Shown piece by piece: positions 32,722 through 36,890 of a stretch of DNA of 64,000 nucleotides; position 1 is the first letter of the stretch, and each line of letters starts with the position of its first letter. The DNA is from Nitrospira sp. ND1. Its GTDB lineage: Bacteria > Nitrospirota > Nitrospiria > Nitrospirales > Nitrospiraceae. A model generated the notes under the pieces. The model was given only the letters and a program-made list of their open reading frames with translations. It was not told the DNA's origin and did no database searches. A program made the position numbers and the translations under genes. The stretch covers positions 1,635,089-1,699,088 of the forward strand of contig NZ_FWEX01000006.1 in NCBI RefSeq assembly GCF_900170025.1. Direction: 5' to 3'.

Positions 32722-32769
32722 AATTGGAGCGGGAAACGGGATTTGAACCCGCGACCCTCGCCTTGGCAA
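32722..32769 (-). repeat. Left attachment repeat (orphan tRNA-Gly 3' fragment)
   Basis: 48 bp identical to 36813-36860. On the minus strand it reads from the tRNA-Gly anticodon loop TTGCCAA through the T arm and CCA. It lacks the 5' half of the tRNA and cannot make a functional tRNA. This is the distal attachment site. Confidence 0.95.
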
Positions 32770-32869
32770 TTCTGAAAAGAGTAATTTCGTAGGGGCTTGA
32801 TTGAGCCGTGGTTTCCCCGATTTTTCCTGATAGTGGCTCAGTTTGGGCACTGTCGATTGGGTCGATAGG

Positions 32870-32919
32870 TTCTGACGAGGTTGATACTTTCTGACGACTT
32901 CTAGCACAAATCTAGCACA
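32870..32919. repeat. Phased short direct repeats at left end (candidate integrase arm sites)
   Basis: TTCTGACGA occurs at 32870-32878 and 32889-32897. TCTAGCACA occurs at 32900-32908 and 32911-32919, an 11-bp period (one helical turn). Paired short repeats inside an attachment end are typical of tyrosine-integrase arm-binding sites. That role is inferred from position. Confidence 0.6.
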
Positions 32920-32945
32920 CGTCCGTTTGAACTGATTGTCTCTTA

Positions 32946-33719
32946 CTATCTGATGTTGTAGGAAAACGGGACTACAAAGACTGTTGGCTTATGAGCATCA
33001 GTACTGTTTAGTGGATATGGGGAGCAATCCATGACCAATTTTGTAGCGGTCCGATCGAGCACGTCCGATCCTGAACTTTCGTCTAACTTTATTTCTTCGA
33101 CTTCACCGTTCGTCCTCAACGTTACCCGCATAATGACAGTGCCGCTTTGAGCGGACGCAAGCCCTATCAACTGAGATGGTTTAGCTGCTTGGGCAGTAAG
33201 GCAAGCCCATACATTAGCAGCAATCTTACGTTGATGTTCAGTCATAGGCTGCAGGTGGTATCGAAAAGGAATTACAGCGGAATATTCCGGGCGATGGAGA
33301 TCCAGATCAAGATTAAGCCGCTTCATTGATTGGATAGCGTCTAGAGCATTATTGTCGAGCAATGGAATGCCAGAGCTTTGGTGCACTTTAGCTTCCGTTA
33401 TCGTACCGTCCTTCAAGAAAACTACGCAAATGAGTACAACTCCCTGCCAGCCACGTTGTTGAGCCTTAGTAGGATAGGTCGGTTGTGGAATCTGCTGCCA
33501 AAGGTATGCCCCTATCACCTTGGGATGGTCCACTGGTAGATGATCTTCCACATTCGACTCAGGGGCAGTCGGTCTACAGGGAGGGATATGAGATATCGCT
33601 TGTCCAGCGCCACTTCTAAGGGTGACAACTTTAATAGGAGTGACTTGGTCACTTGCACAGCCGATAAGCAGGGCGGTCAAGAAAAAGACAACCAAGGATA
33701 TGTGCTTGCGAGTCGGCAT
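32946..33719 (-). CDS. Lipoprotein with two TonB C-terminal-like domains
   Basis: A 257-residue predicted lipoprotein with lipobox LIGC (C21). A first domain (about 75-150) matches TonB_C: PTYPTKAQQRGWQGVVL, then FLKDGTITEAKVHQSSG and LLDNNALDAIQSM. A second, weaker copy (about 190-255) reads VIMRVTLRTNGEVEEIKLDE then SSGSDVLDRTA. A normal TonB is anchored by one N-terminal helix and has a proline-rich spanning segment; this one has a lipid anchor and no such segment, so it is unlikely to energise receptors in the ordinary way. It is the only cargo-like gene of the element and faces away from the replication genes. Its benefit to host or element is unknown. Confidence 0.75.
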   Translation of the reverse strand: MPTRKHISLVVFFLTALLIGCASDQVTPIKVVTLRSGAGQAISHIPPCRPTAPESNVEDHLPVDHPKVIGAYLWQQIPQPTYPTKAQQRGWQGVVLICVVFLKDGTITEAKVHQSSGIPLLDNNALDAIQSMKRLNLDLDLHRPEYSAVIPFRYHLQPMTEHQRKIAANVWACLTAQAAKPSQLIGLASAQSGTVIMRVTLRTNGEVEEIKLDESSGSDVLDRTATKLVMDCSPYPLNSTDAHKPTVFVVPFSYNIR

Positions 33720-33825
33720 CGATTAGTATCCCCGGGAAAATCGGTCGCAGGATGAACGAGGCTAAGTCTAATCGTTGGCGTCGGCAAGTGAGTAGTCCTC
33801 AGTGGGATCAGAACCCCACCTGACT

Positions 33826-33837
33826 GGGGGGGGGGGG
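33826..33837 (+). repeat. Run of 12 guanines
   Basis: An uninterrupted G12 tract in the non-coding gap (33720-33945) between the lipoprotein gene and the RHH gene of the element. I see no gene in this gap. The tract is prone to slippage and to sequencing error, so its length should be treated with caution. Confidence 0.85.
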
Positions 33838-33945
33838 TTACAAAACAAGCTGATTAGAGGAGTACGGAAGGAATTTATTTTCGGTAACCGGGTTGGGCGT
33901 TTGGCCACTTGAAATGGAAGCTCTCTCATAAACCTAGCACGGCCA

Positions 33946-33986
33946 TTGACAATTTATATGTACTATATTATGTAATGCATACATAT
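33946..33986 (+). promoter_or_regulatory. AT-rich promoter with nested inverted repeats upstream of RHH gene
   Basis: TTGACA at 33946-33951 is followed by an AT-rich stretch with several possible -10 boxes. ATATGTA (33956-33962) pairs with TACATAT (33980-33986), and TATGTA (33969-33974) pairs with TACATA (33980-33985) around ATGCA. This looks like an operator overlapping the promoter. Autoregulation by the RHH-like product is inferred. Confidence 0.6.
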
Positions 33987-33999
33987 CATGGAGGACGTT

Positions 34000-34248
34000 A
34001 TGAAGGGTGAGGATACTAAGACCGAAACGCTGCAATTCAAAGTCACCGAACAAGAACGCAAGCTCATTGAGCGATGTGCCAGGGATGAAGGAACGACTGT
34101 CTCCAAGTATGTCCGCGGGGCAGTCCTCATGAGCATGGTGATGGACGGCAAAGCTGAGGCGATTAAAATCGTCGCCAGAGAGGTCGGAGAGAAGGCCTTT
34201 GGCGTCGTCCGACAGAAGCTTGTCCGACCGACTCAGGAAGGACGCTGA
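34000..34248 (+). CDS. Small ribbon-helix-helix / MobC-like DNA-binding protein
   Basis: An 82-residue protein. Its first strand KTETLQFKVTEQERKLIERC is followed by a helix and EGTTVSKYVRGAVL, the usual pattern of ribbon-helix-helix repressors and of MobC-type relaxosome accessory proteins. ATG 34000 is chosen because GGAGG lies 5 bases upstream; ATG 33988 overlaps that site. It precedes the rolling-circle initiator gene by 145 bases, and inverted repeats cover its promoter. It may repress its own operon, assist nicking at the hairpin region, or both. Confidence 0.7.
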   Translation: MKGEDTKTETLQFKVTEQERKLIERCARDEGTTVSKYVRGAVLMSMVMDGKAEAIKIVAREVGEKAFGVVRQKLVRPTQEGR

Positions 34249-34293
34249 GAACAATGCTATCCGTCTCACCATCAACAGGCAAAGCCGGTCCGC

Positions 34294-34368
34294 GCCGCAT
34301 GCCGGCAGGCTGCGGGGCGGAGCGGAATGGCCCCCGTCTTGGTAACACGGGGGCGCTACCCACAGCGC
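34294..34368 (+). other. Cluster of three hairpins, candidate double-strand origin or oriT
   Basis: In 75 bases just before the initiator gene: CCGCA (34295-34299) pairs with TGCGG (34311-34315); GCCCCCGT (34330-34337) pairs with ACGGGGGC (34347-34354) around loop CTTGGTAAC; and GCGCT (34353-34357) pairs with AGCGC (34364-34368). Rolling-circle initiators nick in hairpin loops next to their genes, so this is the best candidate origin. There is no U-rich tail to suggest a terminator. The gap contains no gene. Confidence 0.5.
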
Positions 34369-34393
34369 TCCGTACAGGAGTTCGATAGATTCC

Positions 34394-35395
34394 ATGGATT
34401 CTGGCTTCACCCTCACCATTGACTGGCTGGCCTTCACGGTCTTGGCGAGCAATCCCGAAGAGACCATGCGGGTCCTTGGTGGAGACTGGAGCAAGGCTAA
34501 GGGCGGGTTCCGAGGCTATCCCTTGTCCTGGATGAGAAGCGACGGTCTGCGTGGGGTCGGCAAATTGGGCACCAATGCCCCTCGTCGTCCGAATGAAATC
34601 CATGTGGATCTGTCGGGCGGCCTGGCGTCCGCCCTGACACTGGATCAAATCCGAACCCTCCTCCAGTGGGTGCATAAGCAGCAAGGACACGTCACGCGCA
34701 TTGATTGCGCCCTGGATGACCGGGCGGGAACGGTCCCGGTCAGGACGATTCGAGAGGCGGTTGCTGCAGGCCAGTGCGTCACGAGGGCGGCTCAAGTCCG
34801 GCATATCGTCTCAAACCTGACGCATGGGACCGGAGCGACGACGGGTGAGACGATGTATTTCGGGAGTCCTCAGAGTCAGACCTTATTGCGCATTTACGAC
34901 AAACGGCTGGAACTGCAGAGCAAAGGACAAGAGAACTGGCCGGAGTACGGGACTCGGTGGGAATTAGAGCTCAAAAAGGATCGCGCCGAACAGTGCGCAA
35001 GGGCACTGGCAACGTTAGACGAAACCGACTGGAAGGAGTTAGTCATTGGGTTGCTCCGGTCCTATGTGGATTTCCGGCAGACTTCAAACCATGCCGATGA
35101 AGAACGATACCGGGCTCCGATGCTGGAGTGGTACGCCCTCCTGACGGAGGGATTTCAAAAGGGGCGATTGGCCCAGGAGCAGCAGGTGCAGACCCTGCAA
35201 AATGTGAAACGATGGGTGAGTGACACCCTGACGCCGATGTTGGCGGTCATTTGTGCCACCCCTGGAGGGGAAGAATGGCTACTGGAAGAAATTGTCAGGG
35301 GCATCTCCAGGTGGAAGGACCGACACCGGAACTTGCTCAAACAGCCCGCTCGGTTTCACCGGTCTGCCGGCGGTCACGCGGGCAGCCCATGTTAG
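34394..35395 (+). CDS. Rolling-circle replication initiation factor (Rep_trans/NicK-like)
   Basis: A 333-residue protein of the replication initiation factor family found in rolling-circle plasmids, filamentous phages and the NicK relaxases of integrative elements. Seen in order: DWLAFTV near the N-terminus, NEIHVDLSGG (67-76), HVTRIDCALDD (99-109), METMYFG-like GETMYFGSPQSQTLLRIYDK (151-170) and WELELKKDRAE. Tyr168 in RIYDK is the likely nucleophile. The C-terminal 100 residues are helical. It is upstream of the excisionase-like and integrase genes and downstream of the hairpin cluster. Whether it supports autonomous replication, transfer, or both cannot be decided from the sequence. Confidence 0.85.
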   Translation: MDSGFTLTIDWLAFTVLASNPEETMRVLGGDWSKAKGGFRGYPLSWMRSDGLRGVGKLGTNAPRRPNEIHVDLSGGLASALTLDQIRTLLQWVHKQQGHVTRIDCALDDRAGTVPVRTIREAVAAGQCVTRAAQVRHIVSNLTHGTGATTGETMYFGSPQSQTLLRIYDKRLELQSKGQENWPEYGTRWELELKKDRAEQCARALATLDETDWKELVIGLLRSYVDFRQTSNHADEERYRAPMLEWYALLTEGFQKGRLAQEQQVQTLQNVKRWVSDTLTPMLAVICATPGGEEWLLEEIVRGISRWKDRHRNLLKQPARFHRSAGGHAGSPC

Positions 35396-35437
35396 GGGGA
35401 CTGGGGGTGTCGAGAGACTCCCCCGGTGTATCTGCAC

Positions 35438-35749
35438 ATGCTCAACGTCAAAGAGCTCTCGGCTTGGCTCAATATCAAGCCATCCACACTCTATCTCTGG
35501 GCCTCAGAGAACAAGATTCCCTGCCGGCGCATTCACGGTCTCGTCCGCTTTGAACCTGAGGCGATTCAGGCCTGGCTGAAGGGCTTTGAGACCAATTCCG
35601 TCAAGCCGTTCTCTCTGCCGACTCGCCACTACACCCGTGACCTTGACCAGCTCATTGAAGCCTCAAAACGCGAAGTCTATACTTCCCGTCACGGGGAAAC
35701 CATTCAGTCAAGCCTCATCCAGAAGGAGGATGCAGATGGGGCTGTTTAG
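35438..35749 (+). CDS. AlpA/excisionase-type helix-turn-helix protein
   Basis: A 103-residue protein with a MerR-like winged helix at residues 1-47: MLNVKELSAWLNIKPSTLYL, then ENKIPCRRIHGLVRFEP. This is the pattern of AlpA and excisionase proteins that bend DNA at attachment sites. The remaining 55 residues are polar with no recognised domain. ATG 35438 is chosen for the fold; ATG 35426 is possible. Its 3' end overlaps the integrase gene by 14 bases, linking translation of the two. Confidence 0.85.
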   Translation: MLNVKELSAWLNIKPSTLYLWASENKIPCRRIHGLVRFEPEAIQAWLKGFETNSVKPFSLPTRHYTRDLDQLIEASKREVYTSRHGETIQSSLIQKEDADGAV

Positions 35750-36809
35750 ACGCAATAAAGTATGGTGGATGACGTTCATTCATCAGGGCCAGCAAGTACG
35801 ACGGTCCACAGGGACAACGGACAAGCGCCTCGCAGAAGCGATTCTCGGGAAAGTACGGGTCAAGATTGTTGAGGGCCGATTCTTTGACACGTTGGAAGCC
35901 AAAGACCATACGTTCAACGACATGATGGATCGATACCTGAAAGAGCGATCAATCACCAAAGCCCCGGCAAGCCGACGGCGGGACGAGCAGTGCCTCACGC
36001 ATTTACGAAGTGCGTTTGGCTCCTTGAATCTTGCAGAAGTCACACCGAAACTTCTTGCCGCCTACAAGGCGAAGAGGCGTGAGACGGCCAAGCCAGCCAC
36101 GGTCAATAAAGAACTCGGCTTGGTTCGGCATAGCTTCAACGTGGCTATCCGAGAGTGGGAATGGTGTCGAGACAATCCCATGCAGAGAGTCTGCATGGAG
36201 AAAGTGCGCAACGAGCGCGACCGGTGGCTGTCCTCGGATGAAGAGGGCCGATTACTGGCTCATTCGGCACCGTGGCTGCAGGACATCATTGTCTTTGCCT
36301 TAAACACCGGCATGCGGCGAGGCGAGATTCTCAACTTGCAATGGCAAGCCATAGACCTCAATCGGCAGGTCCTGGTGGTGATGCGAAGCAAGAATGGCGA
36401 GAAGCGGACTGTCCCGCTCAACGGTCGGTTAACGGACTTGCTGAAGAGAAAAGCGTCAAAGAGGGCAGCAGGCTCGTTCGTGTTTGCGAGTTCAGCTGAG
36501 ACGCTATTCGACGCTCGAAACCTCACGCGATCATTCAGACTCGCGGCAACGAAGGCAGCGTTGAGCGATTTCCGCTTTCACGATTTGAGACACACCTTTG
36601 CCACTCGGCTCGCACAAGCTGGTGTCGATTTGTACAAGGTGCAACGTCTGTTGGGGCACAAAACAGCAGCTATGACGCAGCGCTACGCGCATCATTCGCC
36701 GGAGAGTTTAAGAGAGGGAGTGTTGATTCTGGAGCGCGTTCACCCTCAGATATCACAAAACTATCACAATGAGGGTGGAGCCGTCGGAGAGTGTTGTGCA
36801 AGTGCTTGA
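35736..36809 (+). CDS. Tyrosine recombinase/integrase of the element
   Basis: A 357-residue site-specific recombinase. An arm-binding/SAM-like N-terminal region (about 60-150) precedes the catalytic domain with R194 (NTGMRRGEIL), K219 (RSKNGEKRTVPL), H282 and R285 (FHDLRHTFATRL), H308 (LLGHKTAAMTQ) and nucleophile Y317 (QRYAHHS). All catalytic residues are present, so it is probably active. GGAGG lies 6 bases before ATG 35736. Its stop is 3 bases from the right attachment repeat, next to the tRNA-Gly target gene, the usual position for such integrases. Confidence 0.95.
   Translation: MGLFRRNKVWWMTFIHQGQQVRRSTGTTDKRLAEAILGKVRVKIVEGRFFDTLEAKDHTFNDMMDRYLKERSITKAPASRRRDEQCLTHLRSAFGSLNLAEVTPKLLAAYKAKRRETAKPATVNKELGLVRHSFNVAIREWEWCRDNPMQRVCMEKVRNERDRWLSSDEEGRLLAHSAPWLQDIIVFALNTGMRRGEILNLQWQAIDLNRQVLVVMRSKNGEKRTVPLNGRLTDLLKRKASKRAAGSFVFASSAETLFDARNLTRSFRLAATKAALSDFRFHDLRHTFATRLAQAGVDLYKVQRLLGHKTAAMTQRYAHHSPESLREGVLILERVHPQISQNYHNEGGAVGECCASA
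36741..36777. repeat. Phased direct repeats inside an inverted repeat at right end
   Basis: TATCACAA occurs at 36751-36758 and 36762-36769, an 11-bp period. The pair is enclosed by CACCCTCA (36741-36748) and its complement TGAGGGTG (36770-36777). The repeats resemble the CTAGCACA pair at the left end. They lie in the integrase 3' coding end and are candidate arm sites; the dyad could also end the transcript. Confidence 0.55.
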
Positions 36810-36812
36810 GAA

Positions 36813-36860
36813 AATTGGAGCGGGAAACGGGATTTGAACCCGCGACCCTCGCCTTGGCAA
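36813..36860 (-). repeat. Right attachment repeat within tRNA-Gly
   Basis: 48 bp identical to 32722-32769, covering tRNA nucleotides 31 to 75 plus three bases past CCA. Here it is joined to the true 5' half of the tRNA, so the target gene is preserved. Confidence 0.95.
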
Positions 36861-36890
36861 GGCGATGCTCTACCACTGAGCTATTCCCGC
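36816..36890 (-). tRNA. tRNA-Gly (anticodon GCC)
   Basis: A 75-nt tRNA including encoded CCA. It has a seven-pair acceptor stem beginning GCGGGAA, a D arm GCTC/GAGC, an anticodon stem TCGCC/GGCGA with loop TTGCCAA, a T arm with loop TTCAAAT, and discriminator T. All stems pair, with one G-T pair in the T arm. It is the integration target of the adjacent element. Confidence 0.97.

Follow-up and report, generated by a model that had tools for sequence, protein, structure and literature searches.

How can a DNA element that encodes neither a secretion apparatus nor a coat reach a new cell? The question is raised by a 4.1-kb island at positions 32722-36860 of the window, i.e., the whole 64,000-nucleotide stretch of Nitrospira sp. 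ND1 analyzed here (contig NZ_FWEX01000006.1, positions 1,635,089 to 1,699,088). We found that the island is a real and intact integrative element, in which a tyrosine integrase module is joined to a rolling-circle initiator of the Rep_trans type and its origin, forming a core that very probably excises, replicates via single-stranded DNA (ssDNA) and needs outside help to travel. The element belongs to an apparently undescribed family spanning most Nitrospira genomes, and the helper that we favor, tentatively, is a filamentous phage (inovirus) resident in the same genome. The features of the element, including its attachment (att) sites, helix-turn-helix (HTH) gene and ribbon-helix-helix (RHH) gene, are as follows (window coordinates, strand).

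32722-32769, no strand assigned: attL, 48-bp direct repeat, 3' fragment of tRNA-Gly (repeat identity; empty site in genome G022 and occupied site in N. defluvii)
32900-32921, plus: left arm-type direct repeats TCTAGCACAAATCTAGCACA, putative integrase arm-binding sites judging by their sequence
32946-33719, minus: cargo, 257-aa lipoprotein-like protein with two TonB_C-type domains (Pfam TonB_C 8.1e-28, TonB_2 4.5e-11)
33988-34248, plus: 86-aa RHH protein, NikA/MbpA-like (Pfam NikA-like 8.3e-8; NCBIfam MbpA 26 bits, cut-off 90)
34284-34325, plus: upstream stem-loop of the putative double-strand origin (DNA fold z -5.2)
34330-34355, plus: nick-type hairpin GCCCCCGTCTTGGTAACACGGGGGCG of the putative rolling-circle origin, immediately upstream of Rep (genome-wide pattern matches)
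34394-35395, plus: Rep_trans rolling-circle initiator, 333 aa (Pfam PF02486 E=2.4e-33)
35364-35385, plus: hairpin 1, CTGCCGGCGGTCACGCGGGCAG, overlapping the Rep C-terminus (pattern and fold)
35400-35427, plus: hairpin 2, ACTGGGGGTGTCGAGAGACTCCCCCGGT, between Rep and the HTH gene (pattern and fold), common to a minority of inoviruses
35426-35749, plus: HTH_17/excisionase-like protein (GTG start listed; ATG at 35438 possible too)
35736-36809, plus: tyrosine integrase, 357 aa, catalytic residues intact (Phage_integrase E=6.5e-39)
36813-36860, no strand assigned: attR, 48-bp direct repeat within the tRNA gene (repeat and tRNA search)
36816-36890, minus: tRNA-Gly(gcc), the target gene, left intact (tRNA search)

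An intact integrative element at tRNA-Gly

The two 48-bp repeats are identical and lie 4,091 bp apart from start to start, as an earlier note made from the sequence alone had stated; 45 bp at the 3' end of tRNA-Gly(gcc), encoded on the minus strand and the sole tRNA detected in the window, lie within the right copy. The same note would have its reading checked against an empty site and related elements with other cargo in other genomes, and both were found. In the Nitrospira relative G022 the two flanks are joined via a single att copy (3,063 bp, 91.9% identity), while a 4,406-bp element with a different cargo and an integrase 89% identical to that of the window lies between these flanks in N. 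defluvii (L035, FP929003.1); relatives with still other cargo occupy other tRNA genes. Because of the empty G022 site and more than 20 other members with tRNA-flanking repeats of their own, the 4,091-bp unit is not a product of chance, and with its integrase, its att repeats at a tRNA gene and an empty site in a relative it is a site-specific integrative element.

The element is probably recently mobile, as the earlier note had supposed. Its copy in genome G015 is 98.8% identical, against 94-94.5% for 15 kb of the right flank, which, judged from such alignments, fits a transfer of the element after the two genomes had diverged; slower change within the element may also account for the excess of identity. 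Several contigs of metagenome-assembled genomes (MAGs), namely L141 and L093 (G015) and L139 and L145 (G003), break off at the 48-bp att copy, which would be expected of a population in which occupied, empty or circular forms occur side by side. In genome G004 the same tRNA-Gly site seems to be filled by another element, of 7.9 kb, whose integrase is distant (34%; L143:3630-11575), and the site can therefore be regarded as a hotspot. In relatives, the arm-type motif reads TTTAGCACAAATTTAGCACA and is found at both ends, near attL and after the integrase gene; it is present too in inovirus prophages bearing an A-like integrase.

With respect to gene content, the integrase retains all five catalytic residues (R194, H282, R285, H308, and Y317), in agreement with its description as apparently intact. 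The HTH gene, previously called excisionase-like, deserves that name by its matches to HTH_17 (E=1.7e-9) and to PHROG 66, 'excisionase and transcriptional regulator' (E=1.6e-6); its score with TIGR01764 'excise' (26.1 bits) is slightly below the 28.8 cut-off. The single cargo gene noted earlier is present and its TonB_C-type product has a lipobox-like start, yet the gene list was incomplete, having missed the RHH gene, which stands beside Rep in under half of the family. No known defense match was found for the cargo of the window itself. As claimed before, coat, Zot, coupling and secretion genes are all absent from the element by the open reading frame (ORF) list, Pfam and PHROG, and no packaging or capsid-interfering gene was recognized within it. 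Thus, it has neither the pI/Zot morphogenesis ATPase and coat genes of an inovirus nor the type IV secretion system (T4SS) and coupling protein of an integrative and conjugative element (ICE). A run of about 12 G residues lies on the plus strand between the cargo and RHH genes (33827-33838).

The Rep-origin core and its spread in Nitrospira

The initiator shows relevant similarity to the solved Rep_trans protein 4CIJ (E=8.9e-19), and residues Y168, K170, D104, D72, and E190 are conserved across all aligned Reps of the family and of inoviruses. A median dN/dS of 0.07 over 330 pairs shows that purifying selection acts on Rep. The origin hairpin, searched for with at most two mismatches, occurs at eight sites in the 4.45-Mb genome, corresponding to four elements and four inovirus prophages; its reversed control gave no matches in the same genome, and genus-wide the hairpin matches track Rep genes. 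Folded as ssDNA, the two origin stems give z = -5.2 in the window and -4.6 to -7.4 in six other elements, where the first stem differs in sequence and the two-stem layout is kept, likewise in inoviruses. Hence, the element is a Rep_trans replicon, with a PF02486 domain that retains the catalytic Tyr and acidic residues and a structured origin that adjoins the initiator and is specific to such replicons.

The earlier assignment to Rep_trans is thereby upheld, while the proposed likeness to NicK has to be qualified: the protein is closer to the filamentous-phage Reps of the same genome than to relaxases of the NicK type and reaches only 54.6 bits with the MobT equivalog model, whose cut-off is 600 bits. 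MOBT relaxases combine an N-terminal HTH with PF02486 (PMC6499999), and Pfam recognized no N-terminal HTH domain on Rep, so that the protein fails both marks, family model and architecture, of an integrative and mobilizable element (IME) with a MOBT relaxase.

A Rep search over 61 relatives found the family in 29. Counted by a hand tally of Reps of at least 69% identity, with fragments included, element copies occur in 23/29 Nitrospira genomes, four of them in that of the window; among 296 genomes of the phylum, Rep matches were obtained in 35, all from the same family as the window's genome. We examined 45 copies, defined as a Rep with a downstream integrase. Their common layout is cargo-(RHH)-origin-Rep-HTH-Int-tRNA, in which the right module is fixed and the cargo varies. 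The lengths range from 4,088 to 10,315 bp among the 23 copies flanked by att repeats of 40 bp or more; the small size emphasized by the earlier note is therefore correct and yet not exceptional, the element being of the smallest type in a genus-wide family. Six kinds of target tRNA were recorded (tRNA-Arg, Glu, Val, Thr, Gly, and Met). Median integrase identity is 95% within the same tRNA and 49% between tRNAs, in contrast to 94 and 93%, respectively, for Rep. Since the integrase tracks the tRNA while Rep stays constant, a single Rep-origin core has been combined with many integrases, every one of them specific for a particular tRNA. The literature searched yielded no description of Nitrospira filamentous phages or of such small elements, which is weak evidence of novelty.

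Element Reps form a single branch apart from inovirus Reps (support 100/99), and for this reason we regard the elements as an old separate lineage rather than freshly decayed prophages. One Rep, that of L085 from another genus, combines the element layout with a long branch. Some copies deviate around the core. In L033 and L047 an 11-bp duplication (CAACACGGGGG) upstream of Rep, in the origin hairpin region, suggests slippage or re-initiation at the origin. Two otherwise typical elements have a broken Rep, by an insertion of about 1.4 kb in L076:7432-9860 (G007) and by a frame break in L052:8001-9004 (N. defluvii); these copies are perhaps dead or trans-dependent.

Around the Rep stop codon, hairpins 1 and 2 (fold z = -3.3) were found by a strict pattern in 41-42 of the 45 element copies. 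Within this genome hairpin 2 is confined to the four elements and one inovirus. Among inoviruses the strict pattern detects it in 3/17, and L059 and L082 have degenerate versions of it. Hairpin 2 could be a complementary-strand origin or a packaging-type signal; a role as the inovirus packaging signal is weakened by the fact that most inoviruses are devoid of it and have another conserved structured block of their own.

A further class of elements (L148, L149, L152, L153, and L155, from G004, G027, G019, and G008) shares hairpins 1/2 and the two-stem origin, the latter except for the short contig L155, and encodes a serine recombinase, a MerR-like protein and a 362-aa protein. The 362-aa protein has no Pfam or PHROG match, and its structure prediction (pLDDT 36) permits no claim on fold. 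It carries LRVYDK...RIEW, a Rep_trans-like catalytic motif, and judging by this motif might possibly represent an unrecognized Rep family. The cargo of L148 includes a SIR2-like protein. In turn, the 4,666-bp element of N. defluvii at tRNA-Lys (L154:4467-9177; 45-bp att repeats) possesses the origin, RHH, hairpin 2, HTH and integrase and no recognizable Rep gene, and would need Rep in trans; its cargo is a DpnII-type restriction enzyme.

Inoviruses, conjugation or DNA uptake as possible vehicles

Taken together, these features suggest the following cycle. The integrase, with the HTH protein as the likely directionality factor, would recombine the 48-bp att copies into a 4,091-bp circle. Rep would then nick the GCCCCCG...TAACACGGGGGC hairpin that immediately precedes the Rep gene, starting rolling-circle replication that yields a single-stranded circle. 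This circle would enter a new cell with machinery from another source and become double-stranded, after which the integrase would insert it at the 3' end of tRNA-Gly. As the element has no transfer genes, it has to depend either on a helper or on DNA uptake by the host. The earlier proposal of an integrative rolling-circle plasmid or a helper-using satellite is in line with the empty site and the related elements; as for the helper, we tentatively favor a filamentous phage of the same genome, with which the element has the Rep family and the origin in common.

Four inovirus prophages reside in the genome of the window (Rep positions G000:C6:672771, G000:C6:2652655, G000:C5:165795, and G000:C3:37828). 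They carry a Rep 52% identical to that of the element, a pIII-like protein, a Zot/pI ATPase and a 70-aa coat-like protein; the pIII-like and coat-like proteins gave no Pfam or PHROG match, and these two assignments accordingly rest on size, position and the appearance of membrane segments. Zot (PF05707) is encoded in 16/29 genomes, with four copies in this one. Nitrospira inovirus prophages (e.g., L057, L058, and L064) resemble the elements in the origin hairpin, the Rep family and some integrase/HTH modules, but differ from them in carrying coat, pIII-like and Zot genes and a conserved hairpin block after the coat gene.

According to the strict form of the satellite reading, co-resident inoviruses would package and export the rolling-circle ssDNA with their coat, Zot and related proteins, just as CTXphi does for RS1. 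We consider this a serious candidate, although short of an even chance. The window's genome does contain a replicon related to that of a co-resident candidate helper: the nearest Reps outside the element family are those of Nitrospira inoviruses (the 52% noted above), and the origin hairpin is the same. The inoviruses L064 and L081 have an HTH and integrase of the element type, 52-61% identical to those of the window, and some inoviruses share hairpin 2. Element sizes of 4.1-10.3 kb are near the inovirus range of 5-20 kb (PMC6813254), genes for conjugation are nearly absent, and element and Zot counts per genome correlate weakly (Spearman 0.43, p 0.02), a trend that genome quality could cause. 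Several observations speak against an inovirus vehicle. Ten of the 23 element-bearing genomes have no Zot gene, and the presence of elements and of Zot across genomes is not associated (Fisher p=1). The hairpin that follows the coat gene in 16/17 inoviruses and the GC-rich block in 15/17, the former possibly a packaging signal, occur in 0/45 elements, no packaging signal shared by all inoviruses was seen in the elements, and hairpin 2 is restricted to a minority of inoviruses. IMG/VR, searched with the Rep protein and hairpin patterns, returned neither elements nor inoviruses; the absence of the inoviruses as well makes this null uninformative. It also counts against the proposed cycle that excision, nicking, the ssDNA form and helper-dependent transfer are all steps that we infer.

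If the element were instead an IME, Rep would serve as the relaxase, the hairpin as oriT and the RHH protein as a relaxosome accessory, with a conjugative element supplying the pore and the coupling protein. Relaxases of the Rep_trans type (MOBT) do drive ICEs, and Rep-Trans relaxases mobilize streptococcal IMEs (PMC6499999, PMC7563843); the RHH gene also matches the NikA/MbpA models. Yet VirB4 was detected in 1/29 Nitrospira genomes and a coupling protein (T4CP) in 6/29, neither of them in the genome of the window, and conjugation in this host looks unlikely, even if plasmids are easily lost from MAGs, so that conjugative helpers could be missed. The MobT score far under its cut-off, the missing N-terminal HTH and the lack of a recognized RHH gene next to Rep in over half of the family point in the same direction, and we hold mobilization to be improbable. 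Somewhat better placed, though still rather unlikely, is an integrative rolling-circle plasmid with no dedicated helper, relying chiefly on vesicles or on DNA uptake by the host for its spread. Uptake of free DNA is possible, as the host genome encodes a ComEC-type competence protein; the core has no transfer gene and elements occur in inovirus-free genomes. However, ComEC homologues are widespread (10/14 control genomes), and the origin shared with inoviruses would then have to be explained by common descent alone. Finally, Rep and an origin related to those of inoviruses together with the absence of coat genes could mark a decayed prophage, stripped of morphogenesis genes and no longer mobile. 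Repeated decay would scatter element Reps among inovirus Reps, whereas they are monophyletic; this and the dN/dS of 0.07 led us to reject the reading as highly improbable, and the intact integrases, variable cargo and varied site occupancy likewise disagree with it. As a rough division of the vehicle, inoviruses on the one hand and transformation or another route on the other appear equally credible, neither of them reaching an even chance, with conjugation a minor contender.

Known systems and the cargo of relatives

The element works like an RS1-type satellite or an IME, and might belong to either. Schmid et al. are said to have reported in 2024 an autonomous plasmid that is an inovirus satellite. 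Like such a plasmid and like RS1 of CTXphi, the element is small, has its own replication initiator, is devoid of morphogenesis genes and lies beside related filamentous prophages. It differs from RS1-type satellites in encoding a tyrosine integrase and an excisionase-like protein that serve tRNA sites, and in its large variable cargo; moreover, its packaging by an inovirus is only presumed and the inovirus post-coat structure is absent from elements. PICI, P4-like and PICMI satellites are, as is the element family, compact, equipped with an integrase and an AlpA/excisionase-like protein, and frequent carriers of defense cargo. These satellites use tailed-phage capsids, whereas the element has a rolling-circle Rep_trans initiator and an ssDNA-type origin. 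With the relaxases of ICEBs1, Tn916 and ICESt3 (MOBT), Rep shares the PF02486 domain with its catalytic Tyr, Lys and acidic residues, and the nick-type hairpin, with its C-run/G-run stem, presumably resembles the oriT of ICEBs1/Tn916; in contrast to these ICEs, the element encodes no conjugation genes, is much smaller and belongs to a different host phylum. Streptococcal Rep-Trans/MobT IMEs (PMC5357655, PMC7563843) have in common with it a recombination module of their own, a Rep_trans-type initiator, the lack of a transfer pore and small size. Unlike them, the element has a Rep with no recognized N-terminal HTH, below the MobT cut-off and nearest to inovirus Reps, in a host genus nearly free of T4SS. 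RS1 and the inovirus-satellite plasmid are described or cited in PMC11389934.

Nitrospira are key nitrite and ammonia oxidizers. If the elements ride filamentous phages, inoviruses would constitute a general vehicle for defense and metal-resistance genes, as tailed phages do for PICIs; if they do not, a genus almost without conjugation genes still exchanges 4-10-kb islands by another route. Since the att sites and the origin of the family are defined and an empty site exists in nature, the question of the vehicle is directly testable. We would cautiously, and with some doubt, go as far as to propose that Nitrospiraceae harbor a new group of filamentous-phage satellites, namely ssDNA elements that integrate at tRNA genes, with an integrase-swapping origin-Rep core and defense/resistance cargo, exported by origin-sharing inoviruses and forming a network with the serine-recombinase relatives and with a Rep-less derivative replicated in trans.

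The cargo of the family varies and, judging by profile matches, often includes genes for defense against phages or for resistance to metals. Hidden Markov model matches among 57 distinct cargo proteins from relatives include AbiTii, TIR-domain, NACHT, Dsr1 and viperin-like proteins and a restriction enzyme; TonB_C proteins are found among the cargo of other members too. In the tRNA-Glu element L044:1976-10444, matches to the sodium bile acid symporter family, a low-molecular-weight phosphatase and a glyoxalase-family protein stand beside an ArsR-like ORF, a set that looks like arsenic resistance by annotation. The same element additionally carries an insertion-sequence transposase.

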